Origin: a bacterium
GTDB lineage: Bacteria; Armatimonadota; Zipacnadia; Zipacnadales; UBA11051
Direction of reading: 5' to 3'
Assembly: GCA_021372615.1 (NCBI GenBank)
Contig: JAJFUB010000109.1
Span: forward strand, 1-64,000
Length of the DNA stretch: 64,000 nucleotides
Part shown: one piece after another, positions 10,606 through 60,098 of the stretch
How the letters are laid out: each line of letters begins with the position of its first letter
Numbering within the stretch: the first letter of the stretch is position 1
Notes under the pieces: model-generated
What the model was told of the DNA's origin: nothing
Database searches by the model: none
The model's input: only the letters and a program-made list of their open reading frames with translations
Program-made: the position numbers and the translations under genes

Positions 10606-10626
10606 GTACTCTCCCTCTGCGTGGTC

Positions 10627-10647
10627 GCGGCCGGTGACCGCTCCTAC
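10627..10647. repeat. REP-like palindrome between paaK1 and the ACT gene
   Basis: On the minus strand this reads GTAGGAGCGGTCACCGGCC. It matches the unit repeated three times at 13338-13433 in the same operon, so one family has inserted in two junctions of this operon. Confidence 0.65.
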
Positions 10648-10691
10648 ACCTGCCACCATGCGAATGGGTTCTGCTGTACGGCTATGGCTCA

Positions 10692-13301: not shown

Positions 13302-13337
13302 GTGAGTCTCGTTGGTGATTGATGGTTGACTGATGGC

Positions 13338-13433
13338 GTGGGAGCGGTCACCGACCGCGACCGTAGCGGTCGGTGACCGCTCCCACGGCGGGTGCTGGTA
13401 GGCCTGGCGATCGCGGTCGGTGACCGCTCCCAC
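13338..13433. repeat. Three REP-like units between iorA and iorB
   Basis: Unit 1 (13338-13358) is GTGGGAGCGGTCACCGACCGC. Unit 2 (13366-13386, also flanked by GTAG) and unit 3 (13413-13433) are its reverse complement, GCGGTCGGTGACCGCTCCC plus AC. Units 1 and 2 make an inverted pair. Each could form a stable stem in the ior mRNA. Confidence 0.75.
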
Positions 13434-13444
13434 GGCAACTACTG

Positions 13445-15271
13445 CTAGGCCTCGCCGATGGCGCCCTTCGGGCAGACCTGCGCGCACAGCGTGCAGCCGG
13501 TGCACAGGGCCGCGTCAATCGCGGGTTGCTGCTTGCCGTTCTCCAGCGTCCGCGCGGAGATGGCGGGACAGCCCAGGCGCAGGCAGGCGCCGCACTGGAT
13601 GCAGCGCGTCTCGTCCACGACGTGGACCGGGCCGCGGTCGCGCGTGATGAGCACGCAGGGGCGACGGGCGATGAGCACCGCCGGGCCGTCGCTCTCCAGC
13701 GCCTCGCGGATGGCCGCCTCCGTCGCCTGCAGGTCAGCGGGCTCGAAGACCTGGACGTGCGCGACGCCAGTGCCCCGACAGAGCGCCTCCAGATCCACCT
13801 TGCCGCCCGACCGGCCCGGCAGCGTCGTGCCGGTGCCCGGGTGGTCCTGACCGCCGGTCATGGCCGTGGTCGAGTTGTCCAGGATGATGACGACCGAGGG
13901 ACTCTGGTTGTAGACGATGTTGAGCAGGCCAGTCATACCGCTGTGCATGAACGTCGAGTCGCCGATCACGGCGACCGCCTTCTGCTTGCCGCCACAGGCC
14001 TGATTGATGCCGTGCACCATGCCGATGCCCCCGCCCATGCACAGGCAGGTGTGCAGGGCCTGCAGGGGCGGCAGCGTGCCGAGCGTGTAGCAGCCGATAT
14101 CGCCATCCACGAACACCTTGAGCTTGCGGAGGGTGTGGAAGACGCCACGATGCGGGCAGCCGGGGCAGAGCTGGGGCGGGCGGGTGGGGAGGCCCTCACC
14201 CCCGGCCCCTCCCCCAGGGGGGGAGGGGAGAACGGCTTCGTTCGCCCCTGACTCCCCCTCTCCCTCTGGGAGAGGGGGTAGGGGGGTGAGGGCGGCGCGC
14301 ACTCGTGCCGGCGACAGCTCGTCTATCTGTAGGCTCTCGGGCAGGGGCTCGACGGTCACGCCCAGTGCGCGGATGCTCTCGGTAAGGTACGGGTCCAACT
14401 CCTCGATCACGACGAGCCGGCGCACGGTGGCCGCGAAGCTGCGGATGAGCTGCTCAGGCAGCGGCCAGGTCATGCCGAGCTTCAGGAAGGAAGCCTCCGG
14501 GGCGACCTCGCGGGCGTACTGGTACGCGATGCCGGCGGCGATGATGCCGATCTCCGGCGAGCCGGGGATGAGCTGGTTGACCGGCGCGGTCTCGTTCCAG
14601 GCGCGGAGGGCCGCCGTGCGCTCGGCGATGACGCGGCGGCGGGCGCGCGCCCGGGCCGGAATCATCACGTACTTCTCGGCCTCGGGGGTGGGCACGGTGT
14701 TGGGCGGGCGCTGCTCGCGCTCGCCGGTGATGACCACGCCATCCGAATGCGCCAGACGGGTCGTGACGCGCAGCAGGACCAGCGTGTCGTGGCGCTCGCT
14801 CAGCTCGAAGGCCAGCTTCGTGAAGTCCAGCGCCTCCTGGGCATCGGCCGGCTCAAGCATCGGCACCTTGGCCGCGCGCGCATACTGCCGGTTGTCCTGC
14901 TCGTTCTGCGAGCTGTGCATCTGCGGGTCGTCGGCGGACAGGACCACCACGCCGCCCTTCACGCCGGTGTAGGAGAGCGTGAAGAAGGGATCGGCGGCGA
15001 CGTTGAGGCCCACGTGCTTCATCGTGACGATACAGCGGGCCCCGGTGAGGGAGGCCCCGGCGGCAGCTTCGAGGGCGCCCTTCTCGTTGACGGCCCATTC
15101 GGTGTAGGCGGGCTGGAAGCCGGCGCTACTGGCCTGTGCGCTGAGCCTCGCCAACGTCGGCAAGACCTCCGAGGACGGGGTGCCGGGGTAGCCGCTGCCG
15201 AAGGTGCAGCCGGCCTCCCAGGCCCCGTGGGCGATGGCTTCATTGCCGGACATCAGGTGTTTCTGGGACAT
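13445..15271 (-). CDS. iorA: Indolepyruvate:ferredoxin oxidoreductase alpha subunit
   Basis: The 608-residue thiamine-diphosphate enzyme starts MSQKHLMSGNEAIAHGAW. It has the N-terminal pyrimidine-binding half and a TPP-binding half beginning LCPGCPHRGVFHTLRKL and containing GDSTFMHSGMTGLLN. At the C-terminus there are two [4Fe-4S] motifs, CIQCGACLRLGCP and CTGCTLCAQVCP. The linker between the halves holds about 34 extra residues rich in Pro, Gly and Glu, encoded by an inverted-repeat element at 14191-14294. ATG15271 fits the family; an upstream GTG at 15295 would overlap hepT. Confidence 0.9.
   Translation of the reverse strand: MSQKHLMSGNEAIAHGAWEAGCTFGSGYPGTPSSEVLPTLARLSAQASSAGFQPAYTEWAVNEKGALEAAAGASLTGARCIVTMKHVGLNVAADPFFTLSYTGVKGGVVVLSADDPQMHSSQNEQDNRQYARAAKVPMLEPADAQEALDFTKLAFELSERHDTLVLLRVTTRLAHSDGVVITGEREQRPPNTVPTPEAEKYVMIPARARARRRVIAERTAALRAWNETAPVNQLIPGSPEIGIIAAGIAYQYAREVAPEASFLKLGMTWPLPEQLIRSFAATVRRLVVIEELDPYLTESIRALGVTVEPLPESLQIDELSPARVRAALTPLPPLPEGEGESGANEAVLPSPPGGGAGGEGLPTRPPQLCPGCPHRGVFHTLRKLKVFVDGDIGCYTLGTLPPLQALHTCLCMGGGIGMVHGINQACGGKQKAVAVIGDSTFMHSGMTGLLNIVYNQSPSVVIILDNSTTAMTGGQDHPGTGTTLPGRSGGKVDLEALCRGTGVAHVQVFEPADLQATEAAIREALESDGPAVLIARRPCVLITRDRGPVHVVDETRCIQCGACLRLGCPAISARTLENGKQQPAIDAALCTGCTLCAQVCPKGAIGEA
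14191..14294. repeat. Palindromic element translated in frame inside iorA
   Basis: The left end CCCTCACCCCCGGCCCCTCC and the right end (GGGAGAGGGGG, then GGGTGAGGG) are inverted copies. The internal GGGGAGAACGGCT also occurs at 59988-60000. The element of about 102 bases keeps the reading frame and encodes about 34 residues in the linker of IorA. The same element family is intergenic at 59936-60098. Confidence 0.75.
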
Positions 15272-15291
15272 GCCTTCAGCTTTCCAGCCTT

Positions 15292-15633
15292 TCACTCAGT
15301 ACGTGCGAGGACTGCCTCAACCGCCTCGATCAGTTCCGGGAGGCGTGTCTGGATCGTGTCCCACACAATGTTCAGGTCAACGTCGAAGTAGCCATGAATC
15401 AGTCGGTTGCGGAGCGCGATGGTCTTCGCCCAAGGGATGCCGGGCTCCGCCTGGCGAAGTTCAGACGACACACCCGTCGCTGCTTCCCCGACCAGCTCCA
15501 GCAAGTGGATCAGCGCGAAGCGGAGCGCGTCGTCGGTGTTCATGTCAGCGCGCGAACGGCCAGCAGAGAGTTCAAGCGCCTTACGCGCGGCTTCCAGAAT
15601 ATGCTGCAAGCGGGCGCGATCACTCTTGGGCAT
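15292..15633 (-). CDS. hepT: HepT-type HEPN toxin
   Basis: The 113-residue all-alpha protein carries RNRLIHGYF near residue 85, the R-x4-6-H-x-Y motif of HEPN RNases. It is paired with a minimal nucleotidyltransferase (mntA), whose start-proximal partner overlaps it by 14 bases. In studied systems the nucleotidyltransferase AMPylates the HepT tyrosine to neutralise it. It ends only 20 bases before iorA starts. Confidence 0.87.
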   Translation of the reverse strand: MPKSDRARLQHILEAARKALELSAGRSRADMNTDDALRFALIHLLELVGEAATGVSSELRQAEPGIPWAKTIALRNRLIHGYFDVDLNIVWDTIQTRLPELIEAVEAVLARTE

Positions 15634-15928
15634 ACTGCACCTCCGCGCCCGCCAGCACTTCGTCGCGGAAGAACTTGCTGAGCGAGTTGGGCGTGTTGAT
15701 CTCCACGCGCCGCCCGCCAAGCATCGCCGATAGCTCTTCCTCCATATCGAAGAGCATGAAGAAGTCAATGGTGTGACCGGGCTCGAACTCGACCAGCACG
15801 TCCACGTCGCTATCGTCGCGGAAATCCGGTCGCAGGATCGAGCCAAACAGCGATAGGCGCTTGATGTGATGACGTTGGCAGAAGCCACCCAACGCCTGCT
15901 CCGGGATCGCGATGCCATGATAGGTCAT
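15620..15928 (-). CDS. mntA: MntA-type nucleotidyltransferase antitoxin
   Basis: The 102-residue minimal nucleotidyltransferase carries LFGSILRPDFRDDSDVDVLV (residues about 27-46), matching the GSx10DxD active site. It probably AMPylates the HepT toxin encoded immediately downstream with a 14-base overlap. ATG15928 follows GGAGG at good spacing, whereas the longer reading frame upstream runs into paaK2. It starts 25 bases after the end of paaK2. Confidence 0.87.
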   Translation of the reverse strand: MTYHGIAIPEQALGGFCQRHHIKRLSLFGSILRPDFRDDSDVDVLVEFEPGHTIDFFMLFDMEEELSAMLGGRRVEINTPNSLSKFFRDEVLAGAEVQYAQE

Positions 15929-15953
15929 GTTCGTTCCTCCGTCCCGTCTGCCC

Positions 15954-17252
15954 CTACTTCGTCCTCTCATCAATCACGCGCACGGCCTTGCCCTCACTAA
16001 CCGGCAGGGCGTGCGGTTGGTGGATCTCGACTTTCGGCGTGAACAGCAGTTCGCTCTTCAGGTCAGCCACGATGCGCTCGCGGAGTGCCTCGACCTTGCG
16101 CATCTCGTCGAAGAACGTGCCGGGGCGTAGCTCGACCTGCACGATCATGTCATCCATCTCGTTGGTGGTCTGCAGGCGGATGAGGTAGTTGCTGCCGACC
16201 TCTTCGATGCCCATGAGTACGCGCTCGACTTGCAGCGGGTAGAGGTTCACCCCGCGCACGATGAGCATGTCATCGCTGCGGCCGGTGATGCGCTCGATGC
16301 GGCGGTGGACCCGACCGCACAGGCATTCGCCGGCCTTCAGGCTGGTGATGTCGCGGGTGCGGTAGCGCAGCAGCGGCATGGCCTGGCGGTTGAGGCTGGT
16401 GAGGACCATCTCGCCGGCCTCGCCCTCGGGCATCGGCTCCTGCGTCTCCGGGTCAATGATCTCGACGAGGTAATGGTCCTCGCGTACGTGGAGGCCGTCC
16501 TGGGCGGGGCACTCAATGGCCACGCCGGGGCCGGCCATCTCCGAGAGGCCGTAGCAGTTGTGGATCTTGACATGCAGCATCTGCTCGACGCGCTGGCGGG
16601 TCTTCTCGGTGTGCGGCTCGGCGCCGATGAAGCCGATGCGCAGCGCCAGATCGCGCTCGATGTCTATGCCGTTCTCCTCGCAGTAGTGGACTACGCGCAG
16701 CGCGTACGAGGGGAGAATGTGGACGCCGGTGGTCTGGAACTCGCGCATGAGCTGCACTTGCCGGGCGGTGTTGCCCGAGCCGGCGGGGATGGTCATGCAG
16801 CCGAGCAGCTCCGAGCCGTAGTGGAAGCCCAGGCCGCCGGTGAACAGGCCGTAGCCCATCATGTTCTGGAAGACGTCCTCGTTCGTCAGGCCGGCGGCGA
16901 TCATGCCACGCGCGACGCACTCGGCCCAGTAGCGCAGGTCGTCGGCGGTGTGGTAGACGGCGGTGGCGACGCCGGTGGTGCCCGACGAGTAGTGCATGCG
17001 GACGACTTGCGCCCGCGGCACGGCCAGCATCCCATAGGGCATGCTGGCGCGCAGGTCGTTCTTGGTCGTGAAGGGCAGGCGGTGCAGATCGTCGAGGCCC
17101 TTGATGGAGGCGGGGTCGAGGCCCATCTCAGCCAATTTGGCGGCATAGAAGGGCGCGTTGGCCGCGCGAGAGACGGCCTGCGGCAGGCGCTCGTCCTGCA
17201 GGGCCAGGATCTCGTCACGGGTCAGGAAGTCGTGCTGGGTGTAGTCAGACAT
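15954..17252 (-). CDS. paaK: Phenylacetate-CoA ligase family protein (copy 2)
   Basis: The 432-residue AMP-forming ligase contains MHYSSGTTGVATAVYHTADD, CYGLSEMAGPGVAIEC and ITGRSDDMLIVRGVNLYPLQ. It is a divergent paralogue of the protein at 10692. This is the first gene of the minus-strand aryl-acid operon. Two copies may handle different acyl substrates. AGAGGAG lies about 12 bases before ATG17252, a long spacing, so the start is moderately sure. Confidence 0.86.
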   Translation of the reverse strand: MSDYTQHDFLTRDEILALQDERLPQAVSRAANAPFYAAKLAEMGLDPASIKGLDDLHRLPFTTKNDLRASMPYGMLAVPRAQVVRMHYSSGTTGVATAVYHTADDLRYWAECVARGMIAAGLTNEDVFQNMMGYGLFTGGLGFHYGSELLGCMTIPAGSGNTARQVQLMREFQTTGVHILPSYALRVVHYCEENGIDIERDLALRIGFIGAEPHTEKTRQRVEQMLHVKIHNCYGLSEMAGPGVAIECPAQDGLHVREDHYLVEIIDPETQEPMPEGEAGEMVLTSLNRQAMPLLRYRTRDITSLKAGECLCGRVHRRIERITGRSDDMLIVRGVNLYPLQVERVLMGIEEVGSNYLIRLQTTNEMDDMIVQVELRPGTFFDEMRKVEALRERIVADLKSELLFTPKVEIHQPHALPVSEGKAVRVIDERTK

Positions 17253-19406: not shown

Positions 19407-19814
19407 CCGGCGGCCCCTTCGGGGCGCGGGGGGTATCAGGCGACGTCTCCCGTGGGCTTCCGCCCACGGCTACGGACGGCGGGCCCTTCGGGCCGGACGG
19501 CAACGGCAAGGCGCCGCGACGAACGCCATGGGCGTGCGCTATGTGCCATGTGTCATGCCATGTGTCATGCCATGTGTCATGCCATGTGCCATGTGCCATG
19601 TGCCATGTGCCATGTGCCATGTGCCGTGCGCCGTGCGCCGTGCGCCGTGCGCCGTGCGCCGTGCGCCGTGCGCCGTGCGCCGTGCGCCGTGCGCCGTGCG
19701 CCGTGCGCCGTGCGCCGTGCGCCCGCGAAGCGGGCCACCGTATGTAGCCGTGGGCGGGAGCCCACGGTTCGGTGCAGCCCCCTCGCGACCTCGGCGCCCC
19801 GGAGGGGCCGCCGG
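19407..19814. repeat. Nested inverted repeats enclosing a heptanucleotide array
   Basis: This 430-base gap has no recognised gene. The outer repeat at 19407-19427 is CCGGCGGCCCCTTCGGGGCG plus C, and its inverted copy at 19794-19814 has one mismatch. The inner repeat at 19450-19473 (GTAG plus palindrome on the minus strand) has an inverted copy at 19744-19767, again with one mismatch. The tandem array lies between the inner copies. Confidence 0.8.
19545..19723. repeat. Tandem 12-mer and 7-mer repeat array
   Basis: Three copies of GCCATGTGTCAT (19545-19580) are followed by six copies of GCCATGT (19581-19622) and 14 perfect copies of GCCGTGC (19623-19720). The two heptamers differ at two positions. 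All reading frames stay open through it, so apparent ORFs here are artefacts of the repeat. Confidence 0.95.
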
Positions 19815-27790: not shown

Positions 27791-27825
27791 CTGTCATGCC
27801 CTCCTACGGGTATGGTTCCGATTGT

Positions 27826-27902
27826 GTAGTGGCGCGATTCATCGCGCCGGGTGTCGCCAGATGCGTCGCAGGGCCAACGGGCGCGATGAATCGCGCCGCT
27901 AC
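27826..27902. repeat. Inverted pair of REP-like units
   Basis: Unit 1 (27826-27848) reads GTAG, then TGGCGCGATTCATCGCGCC. Unit 2 (27880-27902) is the reverse complement with one difference and ends CTAC. On the minus strand, unit 2 supplies the TAG stop of the Gfo/Idh/MocA gene ending at 27899. Confidence 0.8.
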
Positions 27903-29104
27903 ATCGCCGTTTCGATGCGGTCCTGATATCGGTGCAGGGATCCGTCCAGCACCTCCGCGACCGTGACTTTGCGTCCGGCGGTCGCCGACTCGAGGATGGC
28001 TTGCGTGACAGCCAGGGCGCGGAGGCCCTGGGCGCCGTCGGCTTCGGGCGGAGCTTCGCGGGCCACGGCCCGGGCGAAGCTGTAGAACTCCGCCGCCAGC
28101 AGCTTGCGGTCGGTCTCGGGGTAGGGGAAGGAGTACTGCGACGGGCGGTCGCCGAACAACTGCGTCTCGATCTCGTTGAGCTGGTAGGACGGCGTGAGTT
28201 CCAGCATCTTGTCGGCAGGCACCTCGTTGCGCTCACGGGAGAGCGTCAGCGGGGCGCCGGTACGGTCGCCGGGCAGGTTGAGCGTGCCGGCGGTGCCGAA
28301 GATCGTGCGCTGGCCAAACGTGTGGCCGGGGCTGGCGAAGCTGATGGTCAGGTGGCCCTGCGCGCCGCTCTCGAAGGCCAGGGCGGCCGTGCAGGCGTCC
28401 TCGGCGTCCACGTCCACGGTCACTTCGGTGCCGTCGTACTCCTTGCCGGCGCGCAGGAAGTGCACCAGTTGGGCCTCGCCGGCCACCGTGGCCACCGGCC
28501 CCATGAGGCTCTCGAGGATGTAGAGGGCGTGGATGCCCACGTCCAGCAGCACACCGCCCGCCGCGAGTTTGTGGCGCCAGGCGGTGCCGATGATCGTGTA
28601 TGCCGAGCCGATGGCGAGCTGCAGAGCGAAGCTCGGGTGGCCGATGAGCCCGTCCCTGATGCAGGCCCTGGCGAGGCGGTTGATCGGGTCGTGGCGGTTG
28701 TTCTCGGCTGTGGCCAGGACGCGTCCGTGACTCGCGGCTGCCTCGACCATGCGCTGCCCGCGCGCCACGGTAATGGCCAGGGGCTTCTCGCACAAGACGT
28801 CCAGACCGGCCTCCAGCAGGCCGACCACCAGCCCATCGTGGGAGCGTGGATCGGTGACGACATCGGCGGCTTGCAGGTCAGGCTGGTCGCGCAGCGCCTG
28901 CGCCAGGTCGGTGTAGACGACCGGCCGGGCCCCGAGGAGTTGCTCGGCCTCGGCCGCAACCTTCTCGGCCAAGTCCAGCCGCCGGTCGCAGACCGCGGTC
29001 AGGCGCACATGGCCCGGCCAGACGCGCTGCAATTCCCCCAGGCCGCGCACGTGGCGCGCGCCCATCATGCCACAGCCGACGAGGAGCAGGTTGATTGGTT
29101 CCAT
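27899..29104 (-). CDS. Gfo/Idh/MocA family NAD(P)-dependent oxidoreductase
   Basis: The 401-residue protein begins INLLLVGCGMMGARHVRGL, a Rossmann G-x-G-x-x-G motif, and holds VLCEKPLAIT with the family catalytic Lys in EKP. GGVLLDVGIHALYILESLMG is the C-terminal domain signature. It probably oxidises a sugar or inositol. ATG29104 overlaps the stop of the upstream DJ-1 gene (TGATG), so the two are coupled. Confidence 0.87.
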   Translation of the reverse strand: MEPINLLLVGCGMMGARHVRGLGELQRVWPGHVRLTAVCDRRLDLAEKVAAEAEQLLGARPVVYTDLAQALRDQPDLQAADVVTDPRSHDGLVVGLLEAGLDVLCEKPLAITVARGQRMVEAAASHGRVLATAENNRHDPINRLARACIRDGLIGHPSFALQLAIGSAYTIIGTAWRHKLAAGGVLLDVGIHALYILESLMGPVATVAGEAQLVHFLRAGKEYDGTEVTVDVDAEDACTAALAFESGAQGHLTISFASPGHTFGQRTIFGTAGTLNLPGDRTGAPLTLSRERNEVPADKMLELTPSYQLNEIETQLFGDRPSQYSFPYPETDRKLLAAEFYSFARAVAREAPPEADGAQGLRALAVTQAILESATAGRKVTVAEVLDGSLHRYQDRIETAM

Positions 29105-59935: not shown

Positions 59936-60098
59936 GGCCTCACCCCCGGCCCCTCTCCCGCGCGCATACGACTGCGCGCCGGAGAGGGGAGAACGGCTCT
60001 GGGGCGGCACGCTGTGCCTGCGGAGCCACCAAGGTGGCGGACGGTGCCCCTCTCCGGGCGCTTGCGCAGCAAGCGGCGGGAGAGGGGTAGGGGTGAGG
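59936..60098. repeat. Palindromic element between GH29 and beta-helix genes
   Basis: The left end CCTCACCCCCGGCCCCTCTC and right end GGGAGAGGGGTAGGGGTGAGG are inverted. Two internal hairpins occur. GGGGAGAACGGCT is shared with the iorA insertion at 14191-14294. It occupies most of the 234-base gap before ATG60161; nothing else was seen there. Confidence 0.75.

Follow-up and report, generated by a model that had tools for sequence, protein, structure and literature searches.

The iorA gene occupies positions 13445-15295 of the minus strand of the window, that is, of the whole 64,000-nucleotide stretch of DNA analysed here, and encodes a protein of 616 aa with POR_N, TPP_enzyme_C and Fer4 domains. 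A 102-bp palindrome (14192-14293, no strand assigned) separates the coding region of the POR_N half from that of the TPP/ferredoxin half and is translated in frame as the peptide ALTPLPPLPEGEGESGANEAVLPSPPGGGAGGEG. The original prediction of a palindrome of about 102 bases with inverted ends, in frame inside an open iorA reading frame, is therefore borne out. The arms (14192-14228 and 14257-14293) are 70% complementary, and the outer ends read CCCTCACCCCC (14193-14203) and GGGGGTGAGGG. As single-stranded DNA, and considering Watson-Crick folding only, the palindrome has a predicted energy of -45.1 kcal/mol (z = -6.4), which none of 200 shuffled sequences equalled. A second, intergenic copy was found where the same prediction had placed it, at about 59936-60098 (no strand assigned), beginning right behind a TAG stop. 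Both window copies contain GGGGAGAACGGCT and the exact 18-mer CCTCACCCCCGGCCCCTC, at 14194 and 59938; this 18-mer has three matches with up to three mismatches, a count reached in 0 of 100 shuffles. Two ORFs upstream of iorA (15292-15973, minus strand) resemble a HEPN-MNT pair, that is, a minimal nucleotidyltransferase and a HEPN protein. Just downstream of iorA, at 13334-13455, there is a member of another palindrome family, GGAGCGGTCACCGACCGCGACC, with 25-nt arms that are 96% complementary; this family also occurs at 10623-10650, and a similar sequence adjoins a TM (the motif described below) in genome G000 (C18:14624).

The insert is absent from IorA in all 24 orthologues compared, which come from genomes of the same order. 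Most of them have a variable linker of 12-13 residues between ...ELSPARVRAAL and LPxRPPxLCxGCPHR, where the IorA of the window carries 32-34 residues encoded by the element. Hence, the palindrome is an in-frame, lineage-specific insertion rather than a universal linker, with a net gain of about 20 residues. The expectation that the element adds about 34 residues holds for what it encodes but not for the gain in length, as the usual 12-13-residue linker is missing. The palindrome would have landed in this variable linker and replaced about 12 residues. The insert would survive because the C-rich sequence reads without stops in several frames and yields a loop rich in Pro, Gly and Glu (LTPxPLPxGEG). 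This loop is probably disordered, and the protein may tolerate it as a flexible loop. Peptides of the element were found neither in solved structures nor in the literature searched.

BoxC repeats were already known in the 1990s. We found that the iorA element is an inverted pair of this motif, also known as PIT or intrastrand triplex motif (TM), and does not represent a new family. The consensus of the motif is CCCTCNCCC N3-6 GGGNGAGGG N3 GGGNGAGGG (PMC4666352). The right half of the iorA element fits it as CCCTCTCCC-TCT-GGGAGAGGG(GG)-TAG-(GG)GGGTGAGGG, and the left half fits it on the minus strand with the loop CCG and longer G runs. By comparison with the published TM types, the half-element at 14192-14228 (minus strand) is type-B-like, with the third strand CCCTCACCCC and the loop CGG/CCG, and that at 14254-14293 (plus strand) is type-A-like, reading CCCTCTCCC-TCT-GGGAGAGGG...TAG...GGGGTGAGGG with a 3-nt hairpin loop (PMC4666352). 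Each of the five inverted TM pairs of E. coli likewise joins one type A and one type B unit (PMC4666352). Both window copies show this pairing of a CCG-loop half with a TAG/TA-loop half, the second one as a variable-loop inverted pair, although it is not universal, as the copies on contigs C169 and C171 have two CCG halves each. An exact 35-mer of the TM motif is present in 107 stretches of the GTDB collection, from many phyla; the taxa include Pseudomonas, Thiotrichaceae, Chloroflexi, Planctomycetota, cyanobacteria, Geobacter, Geothermobacter, Verrucomicrobia and Aminicenantes, among others. The original prediction had likened the palindrome to the elements of Rickettsia, arising in an unrelated lineage. 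This stands insofar as the insert is lineage-specific, is translated in frame and has several in-frame intragenic relatives in the genome, but the family itself is not restricted to a lineage, as it is the BoxC/PIT/TM of E. coli and cyanobacteria, identical over 35 nucleotides in many phyla. No family of Rfam was accepted for the element, which gave only microRNA-type chance matches under the gathering scores and a weak match to whalefall-1. A comparison with 50,697 phage records returned no match, so spread by phages is not supported.

The palindrome in iorA is one of about 36 TM copies located in the genome of the window, 7-8 of which lie in frame inside genes. To call coding flanks in this genome, we trained a codon-usage model on the sequence of the window. 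In six cases, the flanks are coding in one frame on both sides with no stop in between: IorA, a protein on C169, a GATase1-like protein (C85), an alpha-2-macroglobulin (C46), a heparinase (C90) and a GH123 protein (C132). PrmA, at a contig end, has a seventh copy immediately ahead of its motif I, and an ABC ATPase carries an eighth, with a variable loop, in its C-terminal part. The comparison with relatives covered IorA, the C169 and C85 proteins, alpha-2-macroglobulin, GH123 and the ABC ATPase. The insert is missing from the homologues of the C169 protein (n=18), of alpha-2-macroglobulin (n=11) and of the C85 protein (n=13); in GH123 a loop is replaced at the insert site, and the ABC ATPase has an insertion of 18 aa whose flanks are well conserved. 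Copies with the 3-nt loop are in frame more often than variable-loop copies (7/12 vs 1/20, p = 0.0016). Two pattern matches, on C55 and at C80:71777, were discarded as chance 21-mers in real genes. Runs of AACGGC/AACGGCGACGG often come after the intergenic copies of G000 (e.g. L028, L081 and L010).

A similar picture was obtained in other bacteria. We classified 116 copies from 107 loci of 46 other genomes, belonging to many phyla, with codon models made for each genome. Coding flanks on one strand were called for 40 copies, of which 38 preserve the reading frame (35 are open, 3 have a stop) and 2 are frameshifted; given an expectation of one third, this bias has p about 3e-16, in a sample that was picked by one exact motif rather than at random and in which copies within one gene are not independent. 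Embedded copies are thus strongly biased towards the reading frame, and the rarity of frame-breaking insertions presumably reflects their removal by selection. At the Pseudomonas loci no copy was in frame and open, as in E. coli, where all 23 TM copies of strain MG1655 are intergenic (Holder et al. 2015, PMC4666352). Pfam assigned many of the regions that surround or span the element to known host families, with many restriction-modification (R-M) genes among them: Type ISP, HsdM, HsdS, HsdR, Eco57I, and N6 and N4 methylases. In an isolate of Pseudanabaena galeata with complete plasmids, several TM pairs lie within annotated, intact methyltransferase CDSs, WP_281009502.1, which adjoins the DISARM gene drmD, and WP_281009867.1.

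Some of these host genes hold more than a TM pair. A Vsr-like endonuclease domain, DUF559 (PF04480), is found between TM units in HsdM of Geothermobacter, in HsdS of a Pseudanabaenaceae MAG, in a Type ISP enzyme of Thiomargarita and in an Eco57I-type methylase of G001, from the window's own family. The TM-flanked proteins are members of the family that includes PDB 3hrl and E. coli ycjD, and the Thiomargarita copy matches 3hrl at 2e-23. In 18 TM-carrying genomes, 16 of the 21 strong DUF559 matches have a TM within 150 nt, 10 of them on both sides, vs none of the 30 Y1_Tnp (RAYT) genes of the same genomes (p = 3e-9). When DUF559 genes of relatives were chosen without regard to TMs, 9 of 27 had a TM, 6 of them on both sides; control loci totalling 391 kb held 7 motif halves. 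Hairpins with a stem of at least 7 stood on both sides of 14 of these 27 genes vs 0 of 33 other genes. The remaining 18 of the 27 are without TMs, and about half of the set lack hairpins on both sides. TM and DUF559 are thus tightly linked physically, in orientations that vary between outward and inward. Many of the flanking hairpins are other C-rich palindromes, such as CCCCCTCCCTTCAGGGAGGGGG around the DUF559 gene on C67 of the window's own genome; another DUF559 gene of this genome, on C80, lies between two TM-type pairs. In complete replicons of isolates, DUF559 is adjoined by TM-like or other C-rich palindromes in Synechocystis, Pseudanabaena, Picosynechococcus, Deinococcus, Sphingomonas and Azospirillum. 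Two DUF559 ORFs of Gallionellaceae (L338 and L345) are flanked by another translated repeat (PPNPPLEKGG / PPFPKGGPGGI), which suggests that DUF559 pairs with several palindrome families. The E. coli gene ycjD has two TM-type sequences, on its right side only. The sapF-ycjD-fabI region (L386) is present in about 62% of 5,426 E. coli genomes; strains devoid of ycjD have other genes there and offer no clean empty site, and an efflux operon comes after sapF in the two such cases inspected. Two TM-carrying genomes, of a Chromatiaceae bacterium and of Pseudomonas alcaligenes, gave no DUF559 match; either TMs can persist or spread in a genome that has no DUF559 gene of its own, or the drafts are incomplete. 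We found no paper joining DUF559 with these repeats, BoxC or ycjD in a literature search that excluded subscription papers and preprints, where a prior description is possible; of the 14 papers found to mention DUF559, none dealt with repeats or mobility in its listed title or abstract.

Some sites exist in alternative states, with a TM pair or with TM-DUF559-TM. In orthologous Type ISP genes, one site is occupied by a TM pair in Thiotrichaceae (L116) and by TM-DUF559-TM in Thiomargarita (L156), with common outer junctions and the inner (A)ATCTTCACTCCCC in both; another site of these genes is filled in L116 and empty in L156. At one site of an MmeI-like methylase gene of cyanobacterial plasmids, Planktothrix has no TM, P. 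galeata has a TM pair and Synechocystis B12 has TM-DUF559-TM, with the gene split. The Planktothrix protein (L401) carries another translated repeat (VILSETKDLSG / AQNDKNN) where P. galeata has the TM pair. In Sphingomonas, sufB and sufC are separated by DUF559 and palindromes; in Xanthomonas, which lacks the unit there, the two genes adjoin. The peptide YRGG(F/Y)xFxGLV, between TM and DUF559, is common to unrelated host genes of Geothermobacter, Pseudanabaenaceae and Verrucomicrobia, as expected if the whole TM-DUF559 unit moves. No clean target-site duplication was seen at the compared sites; one filled site (L116) has a possible GATT repeat, and the flanks elsewhere are too diverged.

Based on these observations, the iorA insert is probably a non-autonomous, MITE-like palindrome derived from a DUF559-encoding element and inserted in frame in a variable linker. 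Like a MITE, it has terminal inverted repeats, a short body and no transposase gene, and the TM-DUF559-TM units with common junctions are candidates for its autonomous parent. The autonomous form would most likely consist of a small Vsr-like DUF559 endonuclease gene between two TMs. The endonuclease may cut or nick the target as well as the structured ends of the TMs, after which repair would copy in the unit or an internal-deletion derivative of it. Short TM pairs could accordingly be seen as putative deletion derivatives. Cleavage and transfer, like the direction of change at the two-state sites (DUF559 loss or gain), are what we infer from sequence comparisons. That DUF559 mobilises the repeats appears reasonably likely. 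More broadly, we lean, with some reserve, towards the view that BoxC/PIT/TM and related C-rich palindromes are the ends of pan-bacterial small mobile elements with a Vsr-like DUF559 enzyme, which repeatedly enter genes in frame, above all those of R-M and other defence systems, leaving behind short palindromes that are translated.

The linkage could also arise if DUF559 and TMs shared a habitat, both accumulating in R-M and defence genes while something else spreads the TMs. Part of the co-location may stem from such sharing. Many host genes in other genomes are indeed related to R-M, BREX or DISARM, and Y1 transposases of the same genomes likewise tend to carry their own hairpins at the flanks (8/26); by itself, counting hairpins is therefore not a specific test. 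We nevertheless consider this explanation unlikely, since in many phyla DUF559 has TM halves within tens of nucleotides on each side, TM-like or other C-rich palindromes also border it outside defence genes (sufB-sufC and hpa genes), the TM pair and TM-DUF559-TM are alternatives at two sites, and no TM lies within 600 nt of any of the 30 Y1 genes.

The repeats might also do without a dedicated enzyme, which would extend the view of Holder et al. 2015 on genomic instability: the triplex-forming sequence would stall replication and be copied through template switching or the repair of breaks. Stable TM triplexes have been obtained in vitro and the TM loci of E. coli are hypervariable (PMC4666352), and the inserts replace host residues with no clear duplication, as this scenario would have it. 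However, it leaves the tight flanking of DUF559, the identity of the motif across phyla and the two-state sites unexplained, and we rate it as quite improbable. The 2015 survey itself neither linked TMs to mobile elements nor proposed a mobiliser (PMC4666352).

It is highly unlikely that the insert is an adaptive linker, kept for IorA function and mobile only incidentally. The insert does lie where the two IorA halves meet, in an intact ORF, but 24 of 24 orthologues manage without it and similar peptides occupy variable loops of unrelated proteins. Spread by a RAYT or another Y1 (TnpA_REP-type) transposase, as thought for REP elements, is scarcely credible either. REP/REPIN are the classic small bacterial palindromes, and the genome of the window has seven Y1_Tnp matches, but no TM occurs in about 1.5 kb of flanks of these genes, nor within 600 nt of the 30 Y1 genes of TM-carrying genomes, and we rejected RAYT as the mobiliser on these grounds. 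An artefact of assembly or binning is almost inconceivable, for although the genome is a draft of 171 contigs with 2.9% contamination and one copy (C160) lies at a contig end, several in-frame copies are independent and the same pattern recurs in the complete P. galeata plasmids, in intact annotated CDSs.

A mobile element with a linked DUF559 nuclease, the reading we prefer, can be set beside several known systems. The iorA element shares with BoxC/PIT/TM the C-rich stem, the hairpin, the second G-rich strand GGGTGAGGG, the inverted pairs and the combination of one type-A-like and one type-B-like half, and differs in that many copies are in frame inside genes, unlike those of E. coli MG1655 (PMC4666352). 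Rickettsia palindromic elements (RPE) are also palindromes of about 100-150 bp that enter unrelated genes in frame and are translated (PMC10969869). The passages considered there mention no RPE-linked endonuclease. The host phyla differ, and the likeness that we see is one of working. REP/REPIN elements with RAYT (PMC3116915, PMC3733652, PMC8266576) have a comparable way of working, with a small gene flanked by inverted palindromes, scattered non-autonomous pairs and a palindrome that varies by lineage; the putative TM enzyme is, however, a Vsr-like DUF559 nuclease and not a Y1 HUH transposase, and TM copies occur inside genes. If DUF559 is the enzyme of these elements, they would form a small-palindrome system distinct from both REP-RAYT and classic transposase-driven MITEs. 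The linked nuclease offers a testable mobiliser for BoxC and hints at a role of the DUF559/YcjD family, which has been little studied. With Vsr-like homing endonucleases and inteins, a conserved host gene, often that of a DNA enzyme, contains an in-frame nuclease domain. In the TM system, by contrast, the TM pair stays in the predicted protein and insertion takes place at many sites. Palindromic repeats thus remodel proteins in frame outside Rickettsia as well, in many phyla, and translated TM repeats explain stray PLPxGEG-type peptides in predicted proteins.

Other repeats are present in the window. Tandem 7-bp units (GCCATGT / GCCGTGC) at 19544-19734 are flanked by a 36-nt inverted repeat (19450-19485 and 19732-19767), and a REP-like inverted repeat, GGCGCGATTCATCGCGCC, with 29-nt arms that are 90% complementary, lies at 27825-27903.
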